Source: a virus. Taken from it: DNA of 20,931 nt. The stretch is taken from the IMG/VR virus record IMGVR_UViG_3300045999_007595, positions 1-20,931 of that record, one strand, 5' to 3'. Position numbers and translations under genes: made by a program. The notes beneath the pieces were generated by a model, which had not been told where the DNA came from, searched no databases, and was given only the letters and a program-made list of their open reading frames with translations. Positions 1-17,949 of this stretch are shown here, in pieces; position 1 is the first letter of the stretch, and each line of letters opens with the position of its first letter.

Positions 1-1
1 C

Positions 2-883
2 TGTTACAACTTTACACTTTCAACTTCAATATCAGTTGCACCGATTAACAACGGGTGCACCAATGATGGTTTTGCATCTGCAATGAGTGGATGGTTTGGT
101 TCGCAAGGTTTAGCACTAGCCAATTCAATCGGTCAACCGATACCACTTTATATGCCAATCAACTCAAACATAACACCCCCTAGAGTAACGGTTGCTAACT
201 CATTCACAGATGCTTGCTTGCCCTTTACAGTAACTTCACCCTTTGGTGGTAATTTTGTTCGACTAGGTAGGCAAGTAATCAACCGCGAAGCTAATCGAAT
301 AAGTTATCGATTTAATGTAACGCCTGCAAGTACGAGTTTCACTTATGCCTTTCTCCCAGTCCTTCAAGACCCTGTTCACGTACCGCACAACCAACCTTTT
401 TTTGAAGCGGTTGTGATTTTGCAAAACGGAACAGTAATTCCATGCTCACGCTACATCGTGGCAGCAAGTCAGGGATTGAGTGGTTATTTGACATCAACAC
501 TATGCACCAATCCATCGGTAATATATCGGCCTTGGTCAACTGTTAATATCGACCTGAGCAATTTGGTAGGGCAAACTGTAACAGTTCAATTCACCGCTGG
601 CGGATGCAGTCAATCAGCACATTGGGGCTATGTTTATTTAGATTATCGGTGCGAGCAATCTTTAATCTTTGACCCAAACTACACAGTCTGCATTGGTCAA
701 TGTGTTACCTTAGCTCAACCGCAAGGTTATGCCCAATACATTTGGCAGAATGGAAGTGCCACAGTTTGCCCAACATCGAACACAACACATTGGCTAAATG
801 TGATAAGCCAAAATGGATGTGCTAGGACATTTACCTTCCCGATTCAAGTGGTTCAAGCCCCGATGGTGGAGATAGTGGAGTGA
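2..883 (+). CDS. Secreted PKD/Ig-like surface protein, C-terminal part (5' end outside window)
   Basis: The reading frame is open from base 2 with no stop, so the gene begins upstream of the window; the first ATG at 83 is not the true start. About 293 codons are visible. The sequence is rich in Thr, Ser, Asn, Val and Cys. It has a segment around WSTVNIDLSNLVGQTVTVQF followed by HWGYVYLDYRC, then an Ig/PKD-like stretch with paired cysteines (CIGQCVTL ... WQNGSA ... NGCARTF). This wording is common in large extracellular proteins of Bacteroidota. Unlike many of those it ends without a type IX sorting domain. Its TGA stop abuts the TAAC core of the first attC-like site, so it looks like the last gene of an upstream cassette. 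Adhesion or surface binding is inference; the precise role is unknown. Confidence 0.7.
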   Translation, partial: CYNFTLSTSISVAPINNGCTNDGFASAMSGWFGSQGLALANSIGQPIPLYMPINSNITPPRVTVANSFTDACLPFTVTSPFGGNFVRLGRQVINREANRISYRFNVTPASTSFTYAFLPVLQDPVHVPHNQPFFEAVVILQNGTVIPCSRYIVAASQGLSGYLTSTLCTNPSVIYRPWSTVNIDLSNLVGQTVTVQFTAGGCSQSAHWGYVYLDYRCEQSLIFDPNYTVCIGQCVTLAQPQGYAQYIWQNGSATVCPTSNTTHWLNVISQNGCARTFTFPIQVVQAPMVEIVE

Positions 884-1165: not shown

Positions 1166-1293
1166 CGTTTTGTGGCTTTGCGTTCGTTGGGGATTTCCAG
1201 CACTAAAGCCGATTGATAGTACAAATTTTAATTTAAGCACAAATGATTATAGATAGCACAAAAGCCCCCAATGACGCAAAACCACTGTTACAG
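1160..1293 (+). repeat. attC-like recombination site 2
   Basis: The left core is GCCTAAC (1160-1166), containing the stop codon of cassette A; the right core is GTTACAG (1287-1293). The stem arms are 1172-1192 and 1266-1285, with one extra T on the left arm that would bulge out like an extrahelical base of canonical attC sites. The left spacer is GTTTT and the right spacer a single base. The loop is AT-rich and contains the ATG at 1243 used by the next gene. The right core matches CTGTAAC at the end of cassette B, not the left core of this site. Confidence 0.85.
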
Positions 1294-1965
1294 GCAGTAC
1301 GGGTTTTAAACCTATACGCTTGTTTAGGAGGTAATCGTTACAAGTGGGATGAAGTGGCAAATATTGAAGTAACCGCAGTTGAATTAGATGAGGAAGCAGC
1401 GAGATTATATCAAGAAAGGTTTCCAAATGATAAAGTAATTGTAGCGGATGCACACCAATATTTATTAGACCATTATACCGAGTTTGATTTCATTTGGAGT
1501 TCGCCACCTTGTCCAAGCCATTCGAGGGTAAAATTTAGCCAAAAAAATCGAGAAAATACAAAGCCATATTATTCAGATATGAAACTGTATGAGGAAATAC
1601 TTTTTTTAGATAATTTTTTTGATGGCAAATACTGTGTTGAAAATGTGATACCATATTATGAGCCATTAATAGCAGCTAAAAAAAGAGGTAGGCACTTATA
1701 TTGGACTAACTTTAATTTGCCTACTGTATTAAGCGAAAGAGATAAAATAAGCGGCTTAATTACAAAAGATGATTATGAAGCCATAAAAAAATTATGTGAA
1801 TTTCACGATTACGATTTTTTTAAGTATAAAGGCGAACAAAGGAGGGCAAAGATGGCGAGAAACCTTGTAGATTATGAAGCTGGTAAAACAATATTTGCAA
1901 CTGCAATGGGAGTAATATTAAAGTCAAAGTCTATTCAAAACTCTCTATTTGGAGATGGATGGTAG
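1243..1965 (+). CDS. Cassette B: C5-cytosine DNA methyltransferase
   Basis: This 240-residue protein is a DNA (cytosine-5) methyltransferase of the Dcm class, transferring a methyl group from S-adenosylmethionine to cytosine. Motif I is near residues 21-31 (VLNLYACLGGN), an acidic cofactor contact follows (VELD, 47-50), the catalytic PPC motif IV has its Cys at residue 90, the ENV motif VI is at 133-135, a QRR-like motif VIII is at 199-201, and a closing motif contains TAMG (220-223). The protein is short for the family, with a small target-recognition region, as is common in phage enzymes. Residues 1-15 come from attC-like site 2, and no ATG, GTG or TTG start exists between the cassette boundary and motif I, so translation must begin in the upstream site. 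Protection of phage DNA from host restriction is the likely role. Target sequence unknown. Confidence 0.88.
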   Translation: MIIDSTKAPNDAKPLLQAVRVLNLYACLGGNRYKWDEVANIEVTAVELDEEAARLYQERFPNDKVIVADAHQYLLDHYTEFDFIWSSPPCPSHSRVKFSQKNRENTKPYYSDMKLYEEILFLDNFFDGKYCVENVIPYYEPLIAAKKRGRHLYWTNFNLPTVLSERDKISGLITKDDYEAIKKLCEFHDYDFFKYKGEQRRAKMARNLVDYEAGKTIFATAMGVILKSKSIQNSLFGDGW

Positions 1966-1971
1966 TATTGC

Positions 1972-2103
1972 CTGTAACGTTTTGCAGATTGCCGAAGGTG
2001 GGGCATTATACCACTAATGTTTAATTGAAATACAAAACTTGATAATATGAAAAATGTTGATTTGAAAAACGAAACCCCCACTTTTGGCAATGTGCTGTTA
2101 GGT
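1972..2103 (+). repeat. attC-like recombination site 3
   Basis: The left core is CTGTAAC (1972-1978), 7 nt after the TAG stop of cassette B; the right core is GTTAGGT (2097-2103). The stem arms 1984-2003 and 2076-2095 are near-complementary over 20 nt (GCAGATTGCCGAAGGTGGGG with CCCCACTTTTGGCAATGTGC). The loop supplies ATG 2047. The right core pairs with ACCTAAC at the end of cassette C. The extended left box reads TATTGC-CTG-TAAC and its counterpart at the start of cassette B reads GTTA-CAG-GCAGTAC. Confidence 0.85.
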
Positions 2104-2712
2104 GCAGTGCCATCGGAGGTTTTTAATGAGGACTGTATTACTTTAATGAAGCGATACCCTGACAAATTCTTTGACCTTGCAGTGGTTGACCCGCCTTATG
2201 GATTGGGAGATAAATTAACGCAAGGTGGAACTTGGGCTTCAAAATATGCTAAAGGAGATGCTTCTTGGGATATTGCCCCGCCTGCCGAATATTGGGAGGA
2301 GTTATTCAGAGTATCTAAAAATCAAATTGTGTGGGGTGGCAATTACTTTGGACTACCTGCAAACAGATGCTTTATAATTTGGGATAAGGTAGCACATATG
2401 GACACATTAGCTGATTGCGAATATGCTTGGACAAGTTTTGACCGTAACGCAAAAATTTTTAAACACGTAAGGAATACAAGCGAAACGAGAATACACATTT
2501 GCCAAAAGCCAATTAAACTTTACGAATGGATATTTAAAAACTTTGCGGTGGAAGGCAATTTGATTTTAGATACTCACTTGGGTAGTGGGAGCAGTAGAAT
2601 AGCAGCAAATAAGGCGGGGCTTCATTTTGTTGGATGCGAAATTAGTCCAGCATATTTTGAAGCACAGGAGGCAAGGTTCAAAGAATTTGTTTCACAGCTA
2701 CGAATGTTCTAA
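2047..2712 (+). CDS. Cassette C: DPPY-type (beta-class) DNA methyltransferase
   Basis: This 221-residue N4-cytosine or N6-adenine DNA methyltransferase has the catalytic motif DPPY at residues 48-51 ahead of the cofactor-binding motif I (LDTHLGSGSSR, about 174-184). That order defines the beta class. A conserved QKPIKLYEW segment (153-161) and FVGCEIS (194-200) complete the fold. It is close to full length for the small phage versions of this family. Residues 1-17 are encoded by attC-like site 3. An in-frame GTG within the cassette just after the boundary is an alternative start and would remove that leader. It is a clear paralogue of cassette D. Methylated base and target site cannot be read from the sequence. 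Confidence 0.88.
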   Translation: MKNVDLKNETPTFGNVLLGAVPSEVFNEDCITLMKRYPDKFFDLAVVDPPYGLGDKLTQGGTWASKYAKGDASWDIAPPAEYWEELFRVSKNQIVWGGNYFGLPANRCFIIWDKVAHMDTLADCEYAWTSFDRNAKIFKHVRNTSETRIHICQKPIKLYEWIFKNFAVEGNLILDTHLGSGSSRIAANKAGLHFVGCEISPAYFEAQEARFKEFVSQLRMF

Positions 2713-2720
2713 GGCATTGC

Positions 2721-2852
2721 ACCTAACGTTTTGCGGCTTGGCGAAGTGGGGGAATTATACCCACAAAAGCCGATTAGAATTACTAATGTTCAATAACAGA
2801 TAAAAGATGATAGAAAGCAGTCAGCCCCCATTTTGCCAAACCGATGTTACCA
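2721..2852 (+). repeat. attC-like recombination site 4
   Basis: The left core is ACCTAAC (2721-2727) and the right core is GTTACCA (2846-2852). The stem arms 2734-2752 (CGGCTTGGCGAAGTGGGGG) and 2825-2843 (CCCCCATTTTGCCAAACCG) pair with G-T wobbles. The loop holds the ATG at 2807. Its right arm resembles that of site 1 (CCAAACCGATGTTA), and these two sites also share the same reading-frame offset between ATG and core. Confidence 0.85.
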
Positions 2853-3481
2853 GCAGTGCGGTTTTTCAGGAGGATTGTGTCGAAGTGATGAAACGCTACC
2901 CAAATAATTATTTTGATGTGGCTATCGTTGACCCACCATATTCTGAAAATTTTAACACCGATGCTTGTGCTAATAACAAGGCAAAAAAAGGGAAATATGA
3001 TATTGAAACTTTGAATGGCTATAAACCAACAGAGGAATACTGGGAAGAACTTTTTAGAGTAAGCAAACACCAAATTATTTGGGGAGCAAATTGGTATGGT
3101 AAATATTTTGGTGTGGGTGGTATTTGTTGGTTTAAAGACAATACAGGAAATTATAGCCCTTGCGAATACGCTTACCAAAGTTTCAATAATCATATCCATC
3201 ATTATCAATATCGTTGGAATGGAATGTTGCAACAGAATATGAAAGATAAAGAGGAACGTATCCATCCAACACAAAAGCCAATTGCCTTGTATGAATGGAC
3301 TATGTTAAAATTTTTAGATAAAGGGGCAAAGATTTTAGACACTCATTTGGGTAGCGGTTCAAGTAGGATAGCTGCTGACAAATTAGGATTTGATTTTGTT
3401 GGTTGCGAATTGTCAGAAATCCATTTTAATAACCAACAAAAACGATTTGAAATTTATAAACAGCAACTTCGATTATGGTAG
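2807..3481 (+). CDS. Cassette D: DPPY-type (beta-class) DNA methyltransferase, paralogue of C
   Basis: This 224-residue enzyme has DPPY at residues 42-45, motif I at about 177-187 (LDTHLGSGSSR), the HPTQKPIALYEW block (153-164) and FVGCELS (197-203). The two ends are strongly similar to cassette C, while the middle (about residues 46-150, the likely target-recognition part) differs. This suggests a different target sequence; that is inference. Residues 1-13 derive from attC-like site 4, and no in-frame ATG, GTG or TTG occurs between the boundary and the conserved VFQEDC start, so the ATG at 2807 is needed. An alternative reading as an RNA methyltransferase is unlikely given the DPPY/QKP architecture. 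Confidence 0.88.
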   Translation: MIESSQPPFCQTDVTSSAVFQEDCVEVMKRYPNNYFDVAIVDPPYSENFNTDACANNKAKKGKYDIETLNGYKPTEEYWEELFRVSKHQIIWGANWYGKYFGVGGICWFKDNTGNYSPCEYAYQSFNNHIHHYQYRWNGMLQQNMKDKEERIHPTQKPIALYEWTMLKFLDKGAKILDTHLGSGSSRIAADKLGFDFVGCELSEIHFNNQQKRFEIYKQQLRLW

Positions 3482-4698: not shown

Positions 4699-5169
4699 TC
4701 ACTCCACCACTACCACCACACCCCGATAAATATACCCCTTACCATAAACCACCACCGTATAAACATCATTTTGCACATTGGCAAGCCACGGCTCTGATCC
4801 ACGATGCAGATTTTCACCCCATCTGTTATAGATTTCAAATTCAAAAAAGCAAAGGCTCTTCGGAGTAAAATAAGCCCCATTCCGCACCGCATTTGGCGTG
4901 TAGATGGGGCAATCTTTGCAAGGTATGATTTGAACGGTTAAGGTAACTTTAGCCAAACACCCATCATTATAAGCATAGGCTTCAACTTTATAAACACCAG
5001 TATCGAGTAGTGTTAGGTTGTAACTCCCACCAACATATTGCCCATTAACCCACCATTCAATGTAATCTTCGTGTTGGGCATCCGCTGAAAGTTTGATAAT
5101 GCCATCGCATAACTCTACTTTCTGGGCATTAATTAAAAGTAACCCCGATAACAGGAACAGGATTGACAT
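4699..5169 (-). CDS. Secreted protein with gliding-type (type IX sorting) C-terminal domain
   Basis: The chosen start is ATG at 5169, because it begins a clean signal peptide (MSILFLLSGLLLINAQ); an earlier in-frame start at 5235 would put 22 residues before it. The mature part has a short Ig/PKD-like region (about 20-82) with paired cysteines. Residues about 88-156 match the gliding-motility-associated C-terminal domain (CHU_C, type B sorting): IYTPNAVRNGAYF, then FEIYNRWGEN, then W, then VYTVVVYGKGYIYRGVVVVV. In bacteria this domain directs export by the type IX system to the cell surface. The gene overlaps its upstream neighbour by 41 nt. It is the last gene of the late transcript. Presence in a phage late region is unusual; surface binding or superinfection exclusion is speculation. 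Confidence 0.75.
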   Translation of the reverse strand: MSILFLLSGLLLINAQKVELCDGIIKLSADAQHEDYIEWWVNGQYVGGSYNLTLLDTGVYKVEAYAYNDGCLAKVTLTVQIIPCKDCPIYTPNAVRNGAYFTPKSLCFFEFEIYNRWGENLHRGSEPWLANVQNDVYTVVVYGKGYIYRGVVVVVE

Positions 5170-5677
5170 TAAATACCGCAGTGGCAGTGCCGGGGCATCC
5201 CGAACCGCTTGAAGTGAATGTGATTGTTTGGCCATTATCAGCAGGGCATAATTGAGTTATTGGAACACCGTTTAAGAAGTAAGTACCAGTTCCACTCCCA
5301 CCGCTAACAGGAATACAAGGCTCGTTTGCACATAATGTAGGCAGTGTGAGAGTAGCAGTTCCTTGTTGAACGCAAAGCACATAAGTGTCCGTGTTTTGGC
5401 AACCAGTTACACCATCAGTAACAGTCAAAGTAATAGTGTAATTCTGCACGATTGCACCCACATCAGCCACGTTAATTGAAGCCGTGCCTTGACCTGTAAA
5501 ACCAAGTGCAGGAGCGATTGCCCACAGGTAGGTAGGTTGCGCTGCGGTTGTGGTTGAATTGGCAACCATTGATTCATTAACGCATTTGGTAACATCGCAT
5601 TGTGCGGTTGAAGCCAATGCGAAAGCCAAAAGAAGGATTGTGAGAAATCCCATAATTTTAAAATGTGTGTTTTTCAT
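5129..5677 (-). CDS. Secreted PKD-like protein
   Basis: ATG 5677 is preferred over 5707: it directly precedes a signal peptide (MKNTHFKIMGFLTILLLAF ... STAQ) and follows an A-rich leader typical of Bacteroidota. The mature protein is Thr/Val/Gly-rich with a PKD-like domain (YLWAIAPALGF ... YTITLTVTDGVTGCQNTDTY) and a second short repeat with paired cysteines (PTLCANEPC, CPADNGQTITF). There is no sorting domain at its own C-terminus. The gene downstream, overlapping by 41 nt in another frame, carries one, so the pair may act together or derive from a split larger protein. Extracellular or virion-surface role inferred. Confidence 0.65.
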   Translation of the reverse strand: MKNTHFKIMGFLTILLLAFALASTAQCDVTKCVNESMVANSTTTAAQPTYLWAIAPALGFTGQGTASINVADVGAIVQNYTITLTVTDGVTGCQNTDTYVLCVQQGTATLTLPTLCANEPCIPVSGGSGTGTYFLNGVPITQLCPADNGQTITFTSSGSGCPGTATAVFNVNPVPVIGVTFN

Positions 5678-5735
5678 TGTGTGTTTGTTTTTGTTTATAT
5701 TTGTCATCAGATTTTCATGTTGTTGATCAAGGGGG

Positions 5736-6239
5736 TTAAGGAGCGATTTCGGTCGCTCCTTTTCTTTTGAATAAGAACCAGTACAAAATCAAAAGCGATC
5801 CGATACTCAATCCAAGTACAAGCAGAAAGTCGCGCGATTCTGCAAGCCACGTTTTTTTCTTAGGTGCTTCCACAGTCACAACCTTAGTACCTGACTTACT
5901 TACATTGCGCTCCATTTGCAATCGCTCAATTATTTGCAATAAACTATCCACATCGCATCGAACCTTTAATCGGTTGTTATCTATGGTCACAGTTGCTCTA
6001 GTGCGCTTACCGTTAATTTGTGCAAGTATTTCATCAATCATAACCTTACCATCGCGGCACTTTAAAAGTGCATAATAAAAGGCACTATCTTCAGGTACCA
6101 CAAATGTATCGCGCACGATGGACACGGTTTCTTTAATCGTTACAGTATCGTGTACCGGACAAGTCGCACAAATTTTCGCACGTCGTTTTTCTGTGATGCA
6201 GCTACTTAGCAACACCAACGCAATCAACATTCTCCACAT
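5736..6239 (-). CDS. Probable unimolecular spanin (lysis lipoprotein with C-terminal membrane segment)
   Basis: The N-terminus has a lipoprotein signal with lipobox LSSC (Cys 14). The middle is a hydrophilic region of about 120 residues with Cys 24, 27, 61 and 95 and a possible helical segment (DSLLQIIERLQMERN). A transmembrane helix at about 138-157 is followed by a basic tail (KRKGATEIAP). A lipid anchor for the outer membrane at one end and an inner-membrane helix at the other is the topology of u-spanins such as T1 gp11, which fuse the two membranes in the last step of lysis. It lies directly after the endolysin and holin-like genes, overlapping the endolysin by 16 nt. The assignment rests on topology and context, not on sequence similarity. 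Confidence 0.6.
   Translation of the reverse strand: MWRMLIALVLLSSCITEKRRAKICATCPVHDTVTIKETVSIVRDTFVVPEDSAFYYALLKCRDGKVMIDEILAQINGKRTRATVTIDNNRLKVRCDVDSLLQIIERLQMERNVSKSGTKVVTVEAPKKKTWLAESRDFLLVLGLSIGSLLILYWFLFKRKGATEIAP
5738..5768 (+). terminator. Strong hairpin at the 3' end of the spanin-like gene, T-tract on + strand
   Basis: AAGGAGCGA (5738-5746) and TCGCTCCTT (5753-5761) form a perfect 9-bp stem with loop TTTCGG, followed on the + strand by TTTCTTTT. On the - strand the hairpin covers the last codons and stop of the gene at 5736-6239 but is followed by ACCCCC, so it should not terminate the late transcript efficiently. It may stop antisense transcription or stabilise mRNA ends. Confidence 0.45.
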
Positions 6240-6814
6240 ATTCTCACATTTTTTAAACTCGATTTCATTCGCATTCTCTTTCTTGTACGGTCGCCATTAT
6301 TAGATGCACCGTTGGAAGCGTTACCTTCCCAACTTTCGATTGAAACACCCAAATCAAGATAAACCAATCCCACATGGTGTGTGCGCTTTAACTTTTTTGA
6401 ATGTATCGTAAACGCTGCTCCAGTTGGTACTACATCACCTGCAGGTTTGCCCCACTTATCCCACGTAGGTGACCAAGCATAAGACTTGGGTGGTTCAATG
6501 TCAAATGCTTTTAAACAAGCCCCTGCCGCACTGCCACACCAAAACGAAGCCACAGGCACACCTGCCATGCGATTCCATTCGTCAATGATTGGGTGGCGGT
6601 TTGAGTTGGCAGGAGTTTCAATAATTCCTGTATGCTTATCCATCCATGCTCGCATACGCACATCCAAAGGCGGTGGCGCAATTGGTTTGGGTAATGGTGG
6701 GCGTGCGCTTAAAAAGTCCGTAGTCGGCTCTAGTTCGCGTACATTCGGGCTTCGATAACCATTGCAGCTACAAAGTAAGCAAAGTAAACCGCAATAAATA
6801 ATAATATTCGCCAT
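6224..6814 (-). CDS. CHAP-like endolysin, probable lipoprotein or exported
   Basis: This 196-residue protein has an N-terminal hydrophobic signal with a lipobox-like LCSC, then a Pro-rich linker (about 38-50). The C-terminal domain resembles a CHAP/NlpC-type Cys-His hydrolase: FWCGSAAGAC with Cys 93, THHVGLVY with His 146/147, and WEGNAS with Glu 163 and Asn 165. Such enzymes cut peptide bonds in peptidoglycan. The 85-nt overlap with the upstream gene is long, but the signal sequence supports this start. With the neighbouring membrane proteins and the spanin-like gene it forms a lysis cluster. Confidence 0.65.
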   Translation of the reverse strand: MANIIIYCGLLCLLCSCNGYRSPNVRELEPTTDFLSARPPLPKPIAPPPLDVRMRAWMDKHTGIIETPANSNRHPIIDEWNRMAGVPVASFWCGSAAGACLKAFDIEPPKSYAWSPTWDKWGKPAGDVVPTGAAFTIHSKKLKRTHHVGLVYLDLGVSIESWEGNASNGASNNGDRTRKRMRMKSSLKNVRICGEC

Positions 6815-7152
6815 AGTCGGTGAAGTTGTGGTTGATTAAATGCATCGATAAAGTCACGATGAAATTGGGTTTGGTCGTTAGAAGTAAACACGCTGTAATA
6901 ATTCCACAAAGCCTTCCAAGTAAATCGAATACCATTGATTGCAAGTAGGTGAAAGAATAGCAATTTAAACCCTGCAACAATTGGGGTTAGAAAGTATTTG
7001 GTTTCGGGAATTGCGGTGGTTTCATCATACCAATAGGCAATCCAAGTAATGATGTGATAGGATGGCAGTATTAATGCCAATCCAAGTAGTTCGTGGTGTT
7101 CGCGGAAAAATGAAATAAGGGACTTACAAGCCCCCCTTACGTTTAGCTTCAT
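6730..7152 (-). CDS. Membrane protein with about three helices, holin or lysis accessory candidate
   Basis: This 140-residue protein has hydrophobic stretches near residues 22-42, 54-74 and 114-134. It is rich in aromatic residues (many Trp, Tyr, Phe and His) and has no recognised domain. It sits between a small holin-like gene and the endolysin, overlapping both (29 nt and 85 nt). Position and topology suggest part of the lysis system; other membrane roles such as superinfection exclusion are possible. Confidence 0.5.
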   Translation of the reverse strand: MKLNVRGACKSLISFFREHHELLGLALILPSYHIITWIAYWYDETTAIPETKYFLTPIVAGFKLLFFHLLAINGIRFTWKALWNYYSVFTSNDQTQFHRDFIDAFNQPQLHRLWRILLFIAVYFAYFVAAMVIEARMYAN

Positions 7153-7333
7153 TTCGTTTGTGTATTTGTGTTTGAACCCATTCGATAAATTTCGCCACCG
7201 CTATCAATGCTGCGAAAAATGCGCCTATAAATTTAAGCACATCGGTAACTGCATTTAAGTTAGCAATGATAAAACTTATGATGAATAATAAAAGAGATGC
7301 CTTGTCAGAAGTGGTAGTTTGGTCGTGTGTCAT
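7124..7333 (-). CDS. Small holin-like protein (69 aa)
   Basis: Two hydrophobic segments are visible (about 13-30 and 35-52), with a polar N-terminus (MTHDQTTTSDK) and a strongly basic C-terminus (HKRNEAKRKGG). Size, topology and location upstream of the endolysin match phage holins, which make the membrane lesion that starts lysis. The start ATG overlaps the stop of the upstream gene (ATGA, 7330-7333), so it is translationally coupled. Confidence 0.6.
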   Translation of the reverse strand: MTHDQTTTSDKASLLLFIISFIIANLNAVTDVLKFIGAFFAALIAVAKFIEWVQTQIHKRNEAKRKGGL

Positions 7334-7846: not shown

Positions 7847-9868
7847 TTAATATTTTATTTTGACAAAAGTTCCATTTGCTGGTGAATTTATCATAGTTAC
7901 AAAAAATCTTCTCGATGCAGAATCAGCAGAAATTTTACTTCTATAAGAGCCGCTACCGCCTGTTATATTGCCATAAATAGTTTCAAGTGTATCAAAATTG
8001 TTTAAGTTAATTGATGTAATGTTTAAATTAAGTACGTTTGTTGTTCCTTGCCCTGATGTATGGGAAACATAGCAAATTCCATTAGGCTCATCAACATAAA
8101 TATCGCTAACTCCATTCATACCAGCAATTGTAGCCAAAACTGTAAATGTTGTTGCTGTTGCTGGTTGCAAAAAAACTAATCTTTGATTTCCAGCCGATGC
8201 AACAATATACATATCTAGCGAAGACACATACTTCACATATCTAGTGTTGCTGATTAATGAACTAGGATTAACATTTAATGCGGTAATTGCATTGGTTGAT
8301 TCATTAATTATTGTTACACCACCATTTGTTCCAACTACAACCCTGCCATTCATTGCAGATGAACCATTGGTATTATGCGCCATCCCTGTTGGTGAAGTTC
8401 CAACGGCTGCTATTGTACCTGTCAACGCTCCTGTTGTTGGGTTTACTATCCCAATTGAATTAGAACCAACTTGAGAAATATAACCTTTGGTTGATGAAAA
8501 CTCTAAAACATCATTTGAGTTGCCAATACTAACCATTGTTCCAAAACCTGTGTAGCTTCCAAATATATTTTCACCTGCTACTGCTGCGCTAATATTAATT
8601 CTTGAAATAGTTGATGGAACACCTGTGGCAAATGCCCATATTTCAGGAGTTGATATTCCTTGAACATGAACTAAATGAGTTGCGCCATTTAAAGTCAGTG
8701 TATTAGTAAGTTCACCGTTAGTTGCGTTGTAAATAGTTATTGTGTTGTTGCTGTGATTCGCACAATATACTTTATTTACAGATGGTAGCCAAAGTAATGA
8801 TACTGCCCCAATATTAGAAATAAATGTTTTCTCAATGTACATTCCACCATTAAGTGGCAAGGATGGAAACGACCAAGTTCTATCTTGCGAAAGGTCTTGG
8901 GTAATTCCTTGAATAGTTATTTCGCGGCTAAGCGGAACAAAGTTAGCAAGGTTGGTTATAACTTGACAAAGGTTGTTATCTTCAGTGTGAAGTGTAATTG
9001 TTCTACCGCTGTTATTTACATATATTCTAATCGCTAACCTATCTGTGGCAAGTAGAGTAGTCTGTGGAACTGCCAATGCACTAAAGTATAAATCTAAGGC
9101 AGTGCCATTTGTAATACCTTCAGGGCTACCCGAATTACTTGCAATTAATGACAGCGTTGTGCCATTCCATTTATAAAGTTCAATGTAAAAAGATGGAGTA
9201 CCGCCCGAACTTGATGAACTAAAATAAATTTCAAAATTCCAATTTCCTGCTGGAATTTCAAGTAAATTAGGAACACCTGCATCGGTAATAAATGATTGAA
9301 TGTAACCATTGGTATTAATGGTGAAATTTGTTCCTGCACCTAAGATTGGAATTTTATCCATTTCTTTAAATGCTACACCGCCAAAAGTACCTTGCGAAAC
9401 AGAACCATTTAAGTATAAAGAAGCAGTTGCACCGCCACCGCTTGATGCAGGAAAATTGGCAAGGCTGCCATCACCACGTACATATTGACTTGTGCTTCCA
9501 TTAGCACTTATATTGATGTTTGGAGTTGTGGTTGGGTTTGTAACTGAAACAGATAATGCAGGGCTTACAGGCGATGGAACACTTGCGGAAACACTTGTTA
9601 CTGTTCCGCTGCCACCACCACCACCACCATAATCTTCTAAGTAACCCAATAGCACACCTGCAATTTGATTGGCTGATGTTGCACCTACAATTTCGCTAAC
9701 TAAATAATCAACTGCTTTTCTTTCATTTTGGCTTACACTTGTCAATCGTAAATAATCACCATACGGCTCAACCCGAAGGTTATCTTTGAGCCATTTGGTT
9801 TCAATGGCAGGTGAGCTGCTATCATCGAAAGCAGATATAATTCCGCTGTTATTTACGAATGTAACCAT
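7847..9868 (-). CDS. Fibre-like structural protein with a C-terminal beta-propeller-like region
   Basis: This 673-residue protein has an N-terminal attachment-like part (1-75), a glycine run then SGTVTSVSASVPSPVSPALS, and STSQYVRGDGSLANFPAS (about 127-144), wording common in Bacteroidota phage tail-fibre proteins. A beta-rich middle (about 150-335) is followed by a region from about 340 with repeated short units (VYCANHSNNTITIYNATNGE, IGIVNPTTGALTGTI, VTIINESTNAITAL) that look like blades of a YVTN/NHL-type propeller. This suggests host-receptor or glycan binding at the tail tip. It overlaps the connector gene by 20 nt. Confidence 0.65.
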   Translation of the reverse strand: MVTFVNNSGIISAFDDSSSPAIETKWLKDNLRVEPYGDYLRLTSVSQNERKAVDYLVSEIVGATSANQIAGVLLGYLEDYGGGGGGSGTVTSVSASVPSPVSPALSVSVTNPTTTPNINISANGSTSQYVRGDGSLANFPASSGGGATASLYLNGSVSQGTFGGVAFKEMDKIPILGAGTNFTINTNGYIQSFITDAGVPNLLEIPAGNWNFEIYFSSSSSGGTPSFYIELYKWNGTTLSLIASNSGSPEGITNGTALDLYFSALAVPQTTLLATDRLAIRIYVNNSGRTITLHTEDNNLCQVITNLANFVPLSREITIQGITQDLSQDRTWSFPSLPLNGGMYIEKTFISNIGAVSLLWLPSVNKVYCANHSNNTITIYNATNGELTNTLTLNGATHLVHVQGISTPEIWAFATGVPSTISRINISAAVAGENIFGSYTGFGTMVSIGNSNDVLEFSSTKGYISQVGSNSIGIVNPTTGALTGTIAAVGTSPTGMAHNTNGSSAMNGRVVVGTNGGVTIINESTNAITALNVNPSSLISNTRYVKYVSSLDMYIVASAGNQRLVFLQPATATTFTVLATIAGMNGVSDIYVDEPNGICYVSHTSGQGTTNVLNLNITSINLNNFDTLETIYGNITGGSGSYRSKISADSASRRFFVTMINSPANGTFVKIKY

Positions 9869-12415: not shown

Positions 12416-13492
12416 TTAGTAAGCCACTTGAATCATGTAATCTTCCAACACTTTAGCATCCACTTTGTATGCGCCTTTGAAGTTGGTCAATTCAGTTGTT
12501 TTGTCGTAGAACACATCGAAGTCACTCACTCCGCTTGATGCATCAAAACCAACAGCTAAGTTAGATTTGGTGGTCAACACGGCACGATGTGGTAAGAACC
12601 ATTTAGTACCGTTTGAGAAGTCAGCACGGATGGTGCGATCCCAGAAATTGAATCCGATAATTTCCAAGTCACGGTAACGCAACACGGAAAACCCATTTTC
12701 AATTCGGATAAACGATGCATCGTTACCTTGTGATTCAAGATAGTTTGCATAAGCATTTACCAACGATTGAGAAGCGATTAACACTTTGTCTTGTGCTGCC
12801 ATCAATCTGTAATCCGCTGTGTTGAATAGTGAATTAAAAACATTTTTTGCGGCAACACCATCGTTGGCGTTCAAAACTGAATCTTGCAAAGCAAAAGTAG
12901 CTTCAGAGTTGGCTGCGATTGTTACTCTACGTGCAGGAGTTGCGGCTACAATTGCAAACAATTGCTTCCACAAACCATCGATGATGTTGTAATCGCCTAA
13001 CGATACACCGTTGGTAATTACGCCAGCAGGTGAACTATTGTAGTTACCAGCAGCAGTGTCGTTAAACCAAACGATACGCAAAGCATCTTCAAATGCTGCA
13101 TCACTCATGCGCTCAATTACAAATCGTGCGAAATCAGTTGCAGTTAAGTCAGCAATATTTAAACCGCGATTTTTTGCGTACACCCAAAAAGATGCTTCCA
13201 AGTCGCGGTGGCATTGTTGCAACCAAATTTTTACCATTTCAGGATCCCAAAACTTTTCGCTCATTGGGATATTGGTAGTAGTTACACCAGTACCGCAACC
13301 TGCGTCTTTTTTGGTAATCTTGTTTAATCGACCAAGAAAAGCGATTTGTTTCTTTGCAACAATATCTTCTTCAATGGTGTGAAACTCAGTGATTGCTGGT
13401 TTCTCAAATGTTTTCTCCATGATGGCTTCGGCCATCGTTTTTATTTCTTCACCGTTAAAGGTGAGATTGGCTGGGTTGATTAAGCTGCTCAT
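12416..13492 (-). CDS. Major capsid protein (HK97 fold expected)
   Basis: This 358-residue protein lies directly after the protease/scaffold gene. It has a long helical region (WLQQCHRDLEASFWVYAKN, FARFVIERMSDAAFEDALRI), an AGVITNGVSLGDYN segment and a C-terminal beta part (DLEIIGFNFWDRTIRADFSN) with conserved-looking PHRAVLTTKSNLAVG. Length and context fit the HK97-type shell protein of many tailed phages. ATG 13492 follows an A-rich leader. A prohead maturation protease next to it implies N-terminal processing. Confidence 0.75.
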   Translation of the reverse strand: MSSLINPANLTFNGEEIKTMAEAIMEKTFEKPAITEFHTIEEDIVAKKQIAFLGRLNKITKKDAGCGTGVTTTNIPMSEKFWDPEMVKIWLQQCHRDLEASFWVYAKNRGLNIADLTATDFARFVIERMSDAAFEDALRIVWFNDTAAGNYNSSPAGVITNGVSLGDYNIIDGLWKQLFAIVAATPARRVTIAANSEATFALQDSVLNANDGVAAKNVFNSLFNTADYRLMAAQDKVLIASQSLVNAYANYLESQGNDASFIRIENGFSVLRYRDLEIIGFNFWDRTIRADFSNGTKWFLPHRAVLTTKSNLAVGFDASSGVSDFDVFYDKTTELTNFKGAYKVDAKVLEDYMIQVAY

Positions 13493-13498
13493 CGTGTG

Positions 13499-13987
13499 TT
13501 ATTTTTTTAAATCTTCTTTTGTAAATCTTTTTGCGTTCGGGTCTGCTGGCTTCGCTTTAGGAGTAAACCCTTTGCGTTGCTGTGCGAATGCTTTTGTAGT
13601 TTGGTTAAGTTTAGCTTCAAAATCTTTCAAAGCATTGTTAGCTGTTTCCAATTCGGCAGTCAATCGAGAATTTTCAGCTTTAAGGGCTTCCATTTCTTCT
13701 TCATCTTCTTTGTAAGAAGCCATTACCACTTCGGTAATAACACCGCCTTCGGTAACGATTACACTTCCATCTGCAAGTGTGTGTGAGCCATCGGGAGCAG
13801 ATTCACCGTTCACAGTAACTACATCACCAACTGCTGGCTCTGCTGCTTCTGTTTCAATTGTTACTTCTGTTCCATCTTCAAGTGTGGTGGTTAGCGCCTT
13901 TGGCTGCTCACCATCAACCAAAGCCTTAAAAAGACGTTGGATTTTTGCGACAATACTTTTGTCGACTGCTGGTTTTGTTTGTGACAT
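13499..13987 (-). CDS. Possible separate scaffold protein from an internal start
   Basis: In the protease frame, ATG 13987 (residue 180, MSQTKPAVDKS) sits exactly at the boundary between the protease and the scaffold. It is preceded by an A-rich stretch (AAACTAAACACAAATAAA) that looks like the leaders of real genes here. Initiation there would give a 162-residue scaffold with the coiled coil and basic tail. Lambda C/Nu3 is the known precedent for such nested genes. It is a prediction; the A-rich stretch also encodes part of the linker. Confidence 0.4.
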   Translation of the reverse strand: MSQTKPAVDKSIVAKIQRLFKALVDGEQPKALTTTLEDGTEVTIETEAAEPAVGDVVTVNGESAPDGSHTLADGSVIVTEGGVITEVVMASYKEDEEEMEALKAENSRLTAELETANNALKDFEAKLNQTTKAFAQQRKGFTPKAKPADPNAKRFTKEDLKK

Positions 13988-14554: not shown

Positions 14555-15085
14555 ATGAATTCACCCAAAAAGGTAAAAGTTGGAATAGTTGGCTTGGGAT
14601 GGTCTAAGCCAACGGAACGCCCTGACTGTGATTATGTGATTGGCGTAAACGATGCGCCAAATTATTGTAATAGGATAGTAGTGGTTGACAACCCTAGTGT
14701 ATTTGATGAGTATAGGCTTTACCAAATAAACATTCATCCTGCCTTACTTTGGTCAAATGTTTATGATTGGGCAATGCTTCGCCCTTGCTTTAATTTCAAA
14801 CTTCACCCAGTTCGCGGCAACATGCAATGTATTTTGAATGGTGAGATACCGCAATCAATTACATCGATTATACCTGCCATCGGAACGGCTTACGCCACCT
14901 TTGGCAAAACAGCACAATACAAACTTTACGGTGTTGACTTGTTGGGGCATCAATCCTTATCGGATAAAGAAAAGGTGCAAATGATTTCAAAGCACCTGTT
15001 TGATTTGGGCAAGTTAATTGACCTTAGCTTTGGAAGTCTGCATAAGGATTCGCCACTTTCTCAAGTGCTACCAAATTACCCATAA
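14555..15085 (+). CDS. Lone + strand gene, Rossmann-like protein, possible glycan-related enzyme
   Basis: ATG 14555 (MNSPKKVKVGIVGLGWSKP) is preferred over 14528, which would touch the divergent protease start. The 176-residue protein begins with a nucleotide-binding-like beta strand and Gly-rich turn (VGIVGLGWSKP), then DYVIGVNDAP, IVVVDNPSVFDEY, NFKLHPVRGN, SIIPAIGTAYATFG and LYGVDLLGHQSLSDKE. The pattern recalls DUF115/sialyltransferase-like phage proteins but is not a firm match. It stands alone against the late genes, with a possible TATATTAG promoter element at 14543-14550. Its 3' end overlaps the convergent glycosyltransferase gene by 62 nt. It may be a late-inserted moron. Confidence 0.6.
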   Translation: MNSPKKVKVGIVGLGWSKPTERPDCDYVIGVNDAPNYCNRIVVVDNPSVFDEYRLYQINIHPALLWSNVYDWAMLRPCFNFKLHPVRGNMQCILNGEIPQSITSIIPAIGTAYATFGKTAQYKLYGVDLLGHQSLSDKEKVQMISKHLFDLGKLIDLSFGSLHKDSPLSQVLPNYP

Positions 15086-15770
15086 CATAGGCTGGCATCG
15101 GTGGCTTCCACGATTTGTAATATTCAATCGATTGCTCAATCGTTCGTTGAATGTTCGGGTATGCTGATGAGTTGCGTAGCTTGCGCCCAATATCATTTCG
15201 CACATAAGAGTAGTGATGCATTTCACATTCGTTACGTGGAAGGACCAACACATTATTGCTTGGTAACTTTCGGGTAGGATCGGCAAGCACTGACCATTGA
15301 ACATACTCTTTAAATACACGCCCCTTAAAAACTTTGTAAAGCAAAGGCACGTAGTATCGCTCAGGCTCTGAATAGCGATGGTATCTGTCACCGTAATAAG
15401 TTTGCATTTGACAAGCTGAAGCATCATAACCATCACGGTTCATCTTCACAGCAACTCGCATAATTTGATGTGGATCATAAATCTCATCACAATCGATGGT
15501 CATAAATAAAGTGCAACCTGCATCCATGCAAGCGGTGTATCCGATGTTTCGCTTTTCCAATTCGTTTTGGTGTCGTGTCAATGCAGCATTGGGTAGGTAC
15601 TCAATCAATCGGTCAAAGCCCAATGGTAAATTGGGCATGTAGTGTTCACCACTATTGGATTGATAGGAATAAACTCCCACAACGTAATCAGCAAATTGCC
15701 TTACCCAATGCAAAGATTCTGGAAGGTGTTCGTCACCATCCCAAATGTTATAGGCTACTCCGATTTTCAT
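15024..15770 (-). CDS. Glycosyltransferase-like protein (GT2-like)
   Basis: This 248-residue protein opens with a beta strand (MKIGVAYNIWDGDEHLPESL), then YVVGVYSYQSNSG and a DxD-type motif in FMTIDCDEIYDP (about residues 90-100). These features are consistent with the nucleotide-sugar-binding GT-A fold. The C-terminal half is rich in Tyr, Arg and His. It belongs to a block of glycan-type genes between the tape measure and the head genes and is coupled to the upstream small gene by ATGA (15767-15770). Acceptor unknown: a virion protein, host surface glycan or modified DNA are all possible. Confidence 0.6.
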   Translation of the reverse strand: MKIGVAYNIWDGDEHLPESLHWVRQFADYVVGVYSYQSNSGEHYMPNLPLGFDRLIEYLPNAALTRHQNELEKRNIGYTACMDAGCTLFMTIDCDEIYDPHQIMRVAVKMNRDGYDASACQMQTYYGDRYHRYSEPERYYVPLLYKVFKGRVFKEYVQWSVLADPTRKLPSNNVLVLPRNECEMHHYSYVRNDIGRKLRNSSAYPNIQRTIEQSIEYYKSWKPPMPAYVMGNLVALEKVANPYADFQS

Positions 15771-16024
15771 AAAACAATGGGTTCAAACTTCATTAATTCC
15801 AATTCAACTTTTACGTTTCTATAATATTCCAATGAATGAAACGCTTGCGAAAATTGAGAATATTGCAAGCCAACTGTCATTGCTTCTAATTGGCTAATAA
15901 ACATATTCACTGCAAACAATGCGCCTTCTTTTGCAAAGTCAAAAAAGCATTCTTCATCGTAACCTTCGCCATCCCATCTAAATTGGTAAAGCATATTTTC
16001 GGCTTCTTCTTTCGGTGTTTTCAT
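15767..16024 (-). CDS. Small phage protein, paralogue of the 4443-4643 product (85 aa)
   Basis: It shares the pattern KTPKEEAENMLYQF ... AKEGALFAVNMFISQL ... EYYRNVKVELELM with the MTPKEQAKELI protein of the + operon, the same order of helices with an insertion. Function unknown. ATGA overlaps couple it to both neighbours (16021-16024 and 15767-15770). Having two copies in one window, on opposite strands and in different transcription units, suggests a duplicated accessory family. Confidence 0.6.
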   Translation of the reverse strand: MKTPKEEAENMLYQFRWDGEGYDEECFFDFAKEGALFAVNMFISQLEAMTVGLQYSQFSQAFHSLEYYRNVKVELELMKFEPIVL

Positions 16025-16674
16025 CCCTTAAATATTGTATCATTCGCGCTCCAATCAACATTGGGAGCAGCATAGTAATAAAGTGCAATTGACTTACGGC
16101 TGCGATTCTCAGGGCATTGAAGCGGCTCAGGGTGTCCGTGCCATGATTTGTCCGATGTGCTAAATATTGCCATCGTTCCAAGTTCGGGCAATACCCTTAC
16201 AACTTCATTAAGTTGCTCATCGTAAAGTTTTAAGTGACCGCCCCATTCTTCCTGCCAATCTTCATTTAGATAAATCAAAACATTCAGCACCCTATCAGCA
16301 CCCCAATAACCATGTTTATCAAAGTCAACATGAATTCCTAATTTCCCACCACGTTTGATTTCGTGATAACCACCGCCAATTAAGTAAGGGTCGGGCATTA
16401 AGTGTGGGATGCCTGTCAATTCACTTAGCCACAAAAGAAAAGGTTCGGAGTTAAGATAGTGAACCAACTGCTTTGCATCCAATCCTAGTTTGCTTTCACC
16501 ATGCGTAACCAATTTACGCTCATGCTTGTTGTCAAACTTGCGGTCTGCAATTTTGTTAAGGTCTGGAAACTCATTGGCCACATGCTGAATTAATGGCCAA
16601 TCTAATTTAAACACTGCATGTGGGAACGGTGCAGCGTTTATGTAGGCTTTATGGTCGGGGTGTGGTAGGTTCAT
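16021..16674 (-). CDS. 2-oxoglutarate/Fe(II)-dependent oxygenase
   Basis: This 217-residue protein has the 2OG-Fe(II) oxygenase signature: HxD at His 115/Asp 117 (GIHVDFD), the distal iron ligand probably His 179 (SWHGHPEPL), and the 2OG-binding basic residue in RSRKSIALYYY (Arg 193). The core beta segment GADRVLNVLIYLNED is typical of the prolyl-4-hydroxylase-like group. It hydroxylates an unknown substrate. Lying between glycosyltransferase genes, it may act on a sugar, a protein or a nucleobase, but nothing in the sequence selects among these. Overlaps the upstream gene by 26 nt. Confidence 0.8.
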   Translation of the reverse strand: MNLPHPDHKAYINAAPFPHAVFKLDWPLIQHVANEFPDLNKIADRKFDNKHERKLVTHGESKLGLDAKQLVHYLNSEPFLLWLSELTGIPHLMPDPYLIGGGYHEIKRGGKLGIHVDFDKHGYWGADRVLNVLIYLNEDWQEEWGGHLKLYDEQLNEVVRVLPELGTMAIFSTSDKSWHGHPEPLQCPENRSRKSIALYYYAAPNVDWSANDTIFKG

Positions 16675-17314
16675 TTTTCAAAAGTAAATAATTTTTGTAT
16701 TGCTCATGCGTCATTCCGCTAGGTAAGAAGTCATGTGTTTTGGATTCCAAATGAATAACCTTTGAATCTCTTATCAGTGCATGTTTGATGTTGTGCTTTT
16801 GGATTTGGTCAGCATACCAATTGTCTTGATACCAAAACCCCAATTCCATCGGAAACAAATTTATGGGTTGAATCTTTTCAATTACACTTCGCTTGAAAAA
16901 AAGAAACCATCCACAAACTTGATAGGATGTGCGATAACCTTCCCACACTTCGGGTGCATTGTCGTGAAGCCTAAGTGTCGGGTCAAGTGATGAGCAACTT
17001 TCGTAACTCGATTCAATCAACTCATCCAAGTAACCTTCTTGCGGCTCGATGTCATTGTTTGCAATGATGTAAGCGTAAGCATGACCAGCAACTTTTAAGC
17101 CCAACAAAACAGATTGATTGTAATTGAACTTTTCGCGGATGTTATGAACCACCGTGCAATCCCTATACTTAAAAGTGCATGGGTTCGATTCAACCAATAC
17201 CACTTCAAGTTCATGTTTGCCTTTGTGCTGATGCAGCAAGTCAATTGCATTTTGAGTCATTTCACACAATTGCTGCGTGAAGCTACCTGTTAGCATGATG
17301 ACCTTTACCTGCAT
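16649..17314 (-). CDS. GT2-type glycosyltransferase
   Basis: The N-terminal strand MQVKVIMLTGSF and LEVVLVESNP are followed by FNYNQSVLLGLKVAGHAYAY and the acidic motif IIANNDIEP (about 88-96), the nucleotide-sugar/metal site of GT-A enzymes. WFLFFKRSVIEKIQP and FWYQDNWYADQI are typical of the later acceptor region in small GT2 proteins. 221 residues. The gene overlaps the 3' end of the next glycosyltransferase by 10 nt and precedes the oxygenase. Sugar and acceptor not determinable. Confidence 0.75.
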   Translation of the reverse strand: MQVKVIMLTGSFTQQLCEMTQNAIDLLHQHKGKHELEVVLVESNPCTFKYRDCTVVHNIREKFNYNQSVLLGLKVAGHAYAYIIANNDIEPQEGYLDELIESSYESCSSLDPTLRLHDNAPEVWEGYRTSYQVCGWFLFFKRSVIEKIQPINLFPMELGFWYQDNWYADQIQKHNIKHALIRDSKVIHLESKTHDFLPSGMTHEQYKNYLLLKNEPTTPRP

Positions 17315-17949
17315 AACAATTGTGATTTCTTTGCCAAATGTAAATACTTTTGGTAATCTGCGCCAATATTATTTTTAAGCCAGTTCGGATCGGATTTGTA
17401 TTGACTGAAGTTCTTTCGATGCCCGACACCGCCACATTGACCAATGCCGTGCTTAATGCCAACTACCAAAGGAAATAGTGGAACAAAGTATGCGCCTTGG
17501 TGCGCTTTGCAAAGGTGAATGTCGAGCCAAATCTCGCTTTCAACTGGGAACTTGAACTCAACATCCAACCTAAGCAACATCGCGCACATACTCGAACGCC
17601 CTGCGTGAACACTATGCCAATATTGGTTAGTGCCTATGTGATAGTAATGTGAATCGGATATGCCAACGACTTCGGGCTTACCTGATTGTTCCCAAAAGTT
17701 AAGCAATCGCTCAACGTATTCAGGATGATACCAATCATCATCTTCAAACACAACTGCCACCGTGCAACCTTTGGCTTTCGCTTTCTCGATTGCTACCTTA
17801 TACCGGTAAGTTAAATCAGTTGGGAATATAGTTTGCGGTTCGTCAACCACAATGTGTTCACACTTGACCGTTTGCCTTTTAACATACTCTCTGCAAAGGT
17901 GCATAAAGTCTTGTCTTTTGCCTAGTGTTGGGGTTATTGCTGCAACCAT
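17305..17949 (-). CDS. GT2-type glycosyltransferase
   Basis: This 214-residue protein begins MVAAITPTLGKRQDFMHLC and has the strong motif VVFEDDDWYHPEYVERLLNF (about 67-86), in which EDDDWY is the DxD-type catalytic/metal site of GT2 enzymes. IVVDEPQ is the second beta strand. It is a different subtype from its neighbour. The start overlaps the preceding small HTH gene by 16 nt. Likely part of a small glycan-modification block for virion or cell surface. Confidence 0.78.
   Translation of the reverse strand: MVAAITPTLGKRQDFMHLCREYVKRQTVKCEHIVVDEPQTIFPTDLTYRYKVAIEKAKAKGCTVAVVFEDDDWYHPEYVERLLNFWEQSGKPEVVGISDSHYYHIGTNQYWHSVHAGRSSMCAMLLRLDVEFKFPVESEIWLDIHLCKAHQGAYFVPLFPLVVGIKHGIGQCGGVGHRKNFSQYKSDPNWLKNNIGADYQKYLHLAKKSQLLCR

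Follow-up and report, generated by a model that had tools for sequence, protein, structure and literature searches.

A divergent CHU_C-like domain encoded beside the lysis genes of a probable Bacteroidota phage, and its secreted PKD partner

Why would a phage encode the kind of domain that sends proteins to the surface of Bacteroidota? The question is raised by a short gene at 4699-5169 of the virus record IMGVR_UViG_3300045999_007595, the whole 20,931-base stretch of which is here called the window. The initial annotation read this gene as a signal peptide plus a CHU_C-type domain in a phage late operon, and proposed that the product is either exported by the type IX secretion system (T9SS) of the host or built into the virion on a borrowed fold. 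The window carries matches to portal, head maturation protease and tape-measure proteins and is therefore phage DNA, with no DNA-level similarity to phages detected. Relatives of its capsid gene occur in Sphingobacteriaceae prophages, for example in Pelobium and Mucilaginibacter, so the host probably belongs to the Bacteroidota. A working T9SS in that host is presumed solely from these same capsid relatives. The features discussed below are the following.

5736..7333, minus strand: lysis-type cluster just upstream of the gene pair, with a lipoprotein, an endolysin-like protein and small membrane proteins
5129..5707, minus strand: partner gene, 192 aa, secreted, with two PKD-like domains
4699..5169, minus strand: CHU_C-like gene, 156 aa; leader, Ig-like domain and divergent type B (CHU_C) C-terminal domain
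5125..5169, minus strand: leader, residues 1-15, MSILFLLSGLLLINA followed by Q; assigned from sequence, alignment and a recoding test
4918..5124, minus strand: Ig-like domain, residues 16-84; its counterpart by homology in the long CHU_C proteins of phages is their last Ig domain
4702..4908, minus strand: CHU_C-like C-terminal domain, residues 88-156 (69 residues), with strands B, D and E retained
4813..4833, minus strand: motif B, IYNRWGE, residues 113-119, placed by alignment
1..883, plus strand: possible third part, a jelly-roll adhesin fragment of 293 aa, open at the contig end and with no C-terminal domain

The endolysin-like protein of the lysis-type cluster has a weak TIGR02594 match, and the spanin and holin reading of the cluster derives from sequence features only: the product of 5736-6239 (minus strand), for example, has an N-terminal lipobox and a C-terminal membrane segment and looks like a unimolecular spanin. 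Elsewhere in the window, three DNA methyltransferases, one of them a C5-cytosine methylase, are encoded in a row at 1243-3481 (plus strand). Three glycosyltransferase-like genes and a 2OG-Fe(II) oxygenase gene (PF13640, E 1.3e-18) are found at 15024-17949 (minus strand), between the tape-measure and head genes, which is unusual cargo for a structural operon; one of the glycosyltransferases has a weak Glycos_transf_2 match and the others are named by their sequence appearance. Fibre-like proteins of two related prophages (L001:14420-15598 and L002:15813-18569, both plus strand) begin with Sec-type leaders, an unexpected feature in proteins of the virion.

The open reading frame at 4699-5169 is present with all three landmarks that were quoted for it (TPNAVRNGAYF, IYNRWGEN and VYTVVV...G). 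Its start is uncertain, since the frame continues open upstream to an in-frame ATG at 5235, which is an alternative start. From the start at 5169, the leader has a hydrophobic core and an A/Q junction as in its relatives, and the basic n-region is absent; it aligns with LNAQ..VELC of the relative in L010. The leader is encoded within the overlap with the upstream gene 5129-5707, and an equally hydrophobic run appears in the leader frame in 1.7% of synonymous recodings of that gene.

Is the C-terminal domain a CHU_C domain? The HMM search suggested for it failed: by hmmscan the protein has no match to PF13585 or TIGR04131 at E <= 1, and CHU_C/TIGR04131 matches were equally absent when the Pfam, NCBIfam and PHROGs models were scanned directly and when genome-mode searches were run. 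No match to PDB sequences was found by phmmer, and no close relatives of the gene were found among the viral contigs, the genome contigs or INPHARED. Since the C-terminal half alone, searched against phage proteins by phmmer, scored no better than decoys, profile methods were adopted. Aligned by hhalign with nine CHU_C domains from cellular genomes, the domain reaches a probability of 94%, E 1.4e-7 and a score of 46.7, the E-values of these profile comparisons referring to single pairs. Sixty shuffles that kept IYNRWGE in place scored 27.0 +/- 2.6 on average and 36.5 at most. Masking IYNRWGE lowers the hhalign score to 21.6; hence the motif supplies much of this signal. A phage CHU_C HMM built without the protein gives it 43.4 bits, or 27.9 bits with the motif masked, and the best of 200 motif-keeping shuffles 23.1 bits. 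Finally, when 395 Bacteroidota genomes were searched with the plain protein sequence and without motif preselection, the eight top places were all taken by C-termini of large CHU_C-type proteins. From the hhalign comparison with shuffles and the cellular matches, the homology to the type B T9SS C-terminal domain extends beyond the signature motif.

The domain is nevertheless divergent, as is suggested by the weak hhalign score with the motif masked and by the failure of phmmer. The alignment, in which motif letters were matched to columns by inference, places the domain at the extreme C-terminus with motifs B, D and E present. In the same alignment, motif A (PNxFTPNGDGxND) is degenerate and shortened to PNAVRNGAYFTP, and motif C (WDG) is degenerate as well, reading WLA and accompanied by a 5-residue deletion. 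In SprB each of the five motifs is required for secretion, according to PMC12618676. With two of these five motifs eroded, the domain was classed as a divergent homologue and not as a full member. A cellular CHU_C-type domain in L163 also has a shortened motif A (PNGFLPSDGPYQPISNC), resembling that of the phage protein, and such a motif may mark a subclass.

The predicted fold points the same way. An AlphaFold2 model of the protein (pLDDT 82.9, pTM 0.58) has four main strands in its C-terminal half, and the solved structure nearest to this half is the type IX CTD of RgpB (5ag8_A, Z 8.7, rmsd 1.8, 63 residues, 24% identity), a type A and not a type B domain; according to PMC12618676, the structure of a type B domain has yet to be solved. 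Many vertebrate Ig proteins score close behind RgpB. These matches were set aside because the likeness is that of the common Ig arrangement only. The best viral structural matches are A0A6J5NJX2 and A0A6J5L8Z9, of 187 and 199 aa. The initial annotation had counted either a failure of the curated models or an unrelated fold against its reading. The models do fail; the more sensitive comparisons and the predicted fold outweigh that failure, and the CHU_C-type assignment is upheld by profile comparison, by the unbiased genome search and by the fold.

Such domains recur in other phages. A scan of IMG/VR for IYNRWGE returned at least 119 contigs, and at least 84 of the contigs carry such a domain, in which a TP precedes the motif and the stop codon lies at the expected distance behind it; the sample was chosen by this motif, and the frequency of other variants lies outside its scope. 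About 35 of the 119 listed pattern matches in viral contigs are chance matches or unrelated proteins and were left out. In L010 the CHU_C domain is confirmed by Pfam (E 3.2e-17). Long forms have about 400-820 aa and above. The matches listed also include eight distinct short proteins (176-194 aa) that are laid out like the window protein. Seven of their genes directly follow a gene for a secreted PKD protein, which is cut off or chimeric in L032 and L040; in the eighth case, L106, a protein with jelly-roll and PKD parts is encoded downstream instead. In L040 one reading frame (8129-9022, plus strand) begins with an N-terminus weakly matching SU10 adaptors and continues as the C-terminal part of a PKD partner; recombination and an assembly chimera are the suggested alternatives. 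Two metagenomic megaphages have three and four such domains. In INPHARED the queries used found no relative in any isolate phage. In L022 a type B gene has as its neighbour (13166-13963, minus strand) a gene for a secreted protein of 265 aa, which has no Pfam match and ends in a stretch similar to a type A sorting domain.

The late-region setting also stands. The gene adjoins lysis genes in the window; in L056 an endolysin gene precedes that of a 309-aa form, homologues adjoin tail genes in L050, L066, L073 and L114, and in T4-like phages a long-form gene lies between the tail tube and baseplate genes. Misbinned host DNA was considered as the source of the viral matches; the tail, baseplate and endolysin neighbours in L050, L056, L066, L073 and L114 speak against it.

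The gene directly upstream, which overlaps the CHU_C-like gene by 41 nt, is part of the same system, and this was missed in the initial annotation. A direct search of the viral contigs found no close relatives of this partner or of the endolysin. By profile, the partner is homologous to the cassette partners of at least five other phages (47.5 bits against the partner HMM, with shuffles at 1.6 or less). Elsewhere partner and anchor are neighbouring stretches of one long phage protein: the window pair maps side by side on the long protein of L011, the partner to residues 172-308 and the anchor to residues 321-444. Parts that are fused in one genome usually interact when separate in another, and the pieces of the split adhesin would thus probably assemble together. 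In other phages the partner ends in [ILV]xH[NFY], and in alignments this tail falls on PITPYN, the linker between domains in the long forms. Of 1129 unique ORFs from the viral loci, 13 have the tail, and all 13 are cassette proteins. The window partner ends in VIGVTFN and does not fit this pattern. A programmed frameshift joining the two genes was set aside, because in other phages each gene has its own complete leader. In L106 the CHU_C gene stands next to that of a 451-aa partner, with which the fragment at 1-883 shares 34% identity over 245 aa; the fragment, about 4 kb away on the opposite strand, could possibly belong to the same adhesin system as the window pair.

How does this compare with known systems? 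SprB of Flavobacterium johnsoniae and PG1035 of Porphyromonas gingivalis share with the window pair a leader, which is putative in the phage protein, the Ig/PKD modules, the position of the C-terminal domain, motif B and the four-strand sheet, and their dependence on a PorP/SprF shuttle would be the expected mode for the phage protein. Unlike them, the window protein is phage-encoded, has only 156 aa, has degenerate motifs A and C and falls below the curated model; no shuttle gene lies alongside in the window, and the PKD domains are on a separate polypeptide. Another related case is the published type A cargo encoded by Cryophage, for which superinfection exclusion was proposed (PMC7468147). 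There too, genes of a Bacteroidota phage specify proteins with a type IX sorting domain; however, the Cryophage domain is of type A, is carried by enzymes or a PA14 protein, and has no split adhesin cassette. Thus phage-encoded type A cargo is known, whereas the type B domain and the split adhesin in phages appear new within the literature searched, which yielded no paper on either. A0A6J5NJX2 and A0A6J5L8Z9, from uncultured Caudovirales, are auto-named 'Gliding motility-associated, C-terminal domain'; these are database names only, and the literature searched held no study of the two proteins. One superinfection-exclusion protein at the cell surface is Llp of phage T5, a lipoprotein that blocks receptors. 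It has no homology to the window protein, and the likeness would be one of proposed effect, namely that of an exported receptor blocker.

What, then, might the pair do? Our best reading is that the 4699-5169 protein would be a late surface protein dependent on a host shuttle. As to anatomy, we are strongly inclined to regard it as the anchor subunit of a split phage adhesin of the type IX kind, the parts of which are translated separately. Its export by the host type IX system is a fairly likely but less secure proposition, and we give roughly 55% to anatomy and surface export together. The leader would direct the protein into the periplasm, where its C-terminal domain may engage the SprA translocon of the host and a host shuttle of the PorP/SprF type. 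According to PMC12618676 and PMC9143113, type B substrates need such a shuttle and are anchored by it or by PorP-like proteins. No PorP/SprF gene was found in any of 30 viral records in one search, which included the window, or in the three further viral records of a second search, two of them of 634 and 642 kb; the phage protein would therefore depend on the shuttle of its host. Each of three Sphingobacteriaceae genomes that hold prophages with related capsids has 4-8 PorP/SprF genes. Several points count against the best reading: motifs A and C are eroded, curated HMMs miss the domain, the window partner lacks the conserved tail, and the leader from 5169 has no basic residue.

Late in infection the anchor may thus reach the surface of the infected cell, holding its PKD partner. 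The most likely benefit would be a remodelling of the receptor-bearing surface. Phage-resistant Flavobacterium columnare has mutations in gld and spr genes (PMC9233685), which makes surface structures exported by the type IX system candidate receptors. The anchor may cover the receptors, or may compete for the shuttles or translocons that host adhesins use, and related phages and the phage's own progeny would thereby be kept from re-adsorbing. We offer this purpose, superinfection exclusion or prevention of re-adsorption, as a tentative suggestion that is less likely than not. Less probable again is the idea that only one split subunit carries the secretion domain and that the others are co-exported with it through SprA as a folded complex. 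Subunits with a Sec-type leader and no sorting domain would then assemble with the anchor in the periplasm by way of the former interdomain linker, the tail PIxHN being equivalent to the linker PITPYN of related phages.

The late surface protein has to be weighed against other fates. Of the two put forward originally, export comes out as the likelier, because a putative Sec-type leader, the architecture of a cellular adhesin and a conserved secreted partner are found together; a virion protein with a borrowed Ig/CHU_C fold, decorating the particle or the tail and never using the type IX system, appears distinctly unlikely, chiefly on account of the leader. The position of long homologues between tail tube and baseplate genes would suit such a protein, and Ig-like decoration proteins such as Hoc occur among the fold matches. 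However, nearly all complete relatives have a Sec-type leader, which would remove the protein from the cytoplasm, where virions are assembled; the domains follow the order seen in cellular surface adhesins, and the protein shares no more with Hoc than the common Ig sandwich. Very improbable, in our judgement, is an accessory of lysis that acts with the upstream lysis genes in breaching or weakening the outer membrane. Its appeal lies in the position of the gene directly after the lysis-type cluster and in that of the L056 homologue after an endolysin gene, but homologues in other phages are in tail modules or distant from lysis genes, and membrane disruption is not a known property of either domain type.

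A different doubt concerns whether the domain still works. With motifs A and C degenerate, and all five motifs needed in SprB as cited above, the case for a functioning secretion signal is weakened, and the gene might be a decaying remnant whose C-terminal domain has lost these motifs by deletion and no longer directs secretion. Scores below every curated cut-off fit such decay. Yet both this reading frame and the partner gene are intact, the fold is well predicted, the leader has been maintained inside a gene overlap, and the cellular homologue in L163 has a shortened motif A as well. We therefore hold a remnant to be a poor bet.

If the reading of the pair as a split, host-exported adhesin is right, phages of Bacteroidota would often add adhesins of their own to the host surface by way of the very machinery that exports their likely receptors. 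Split adhesins would then make it testable whether the type IX system carries complexes with subunits that lack a sorting domain. The finding would also offer a way into the study of superinfection exclusion, of which little is known in this phylum.
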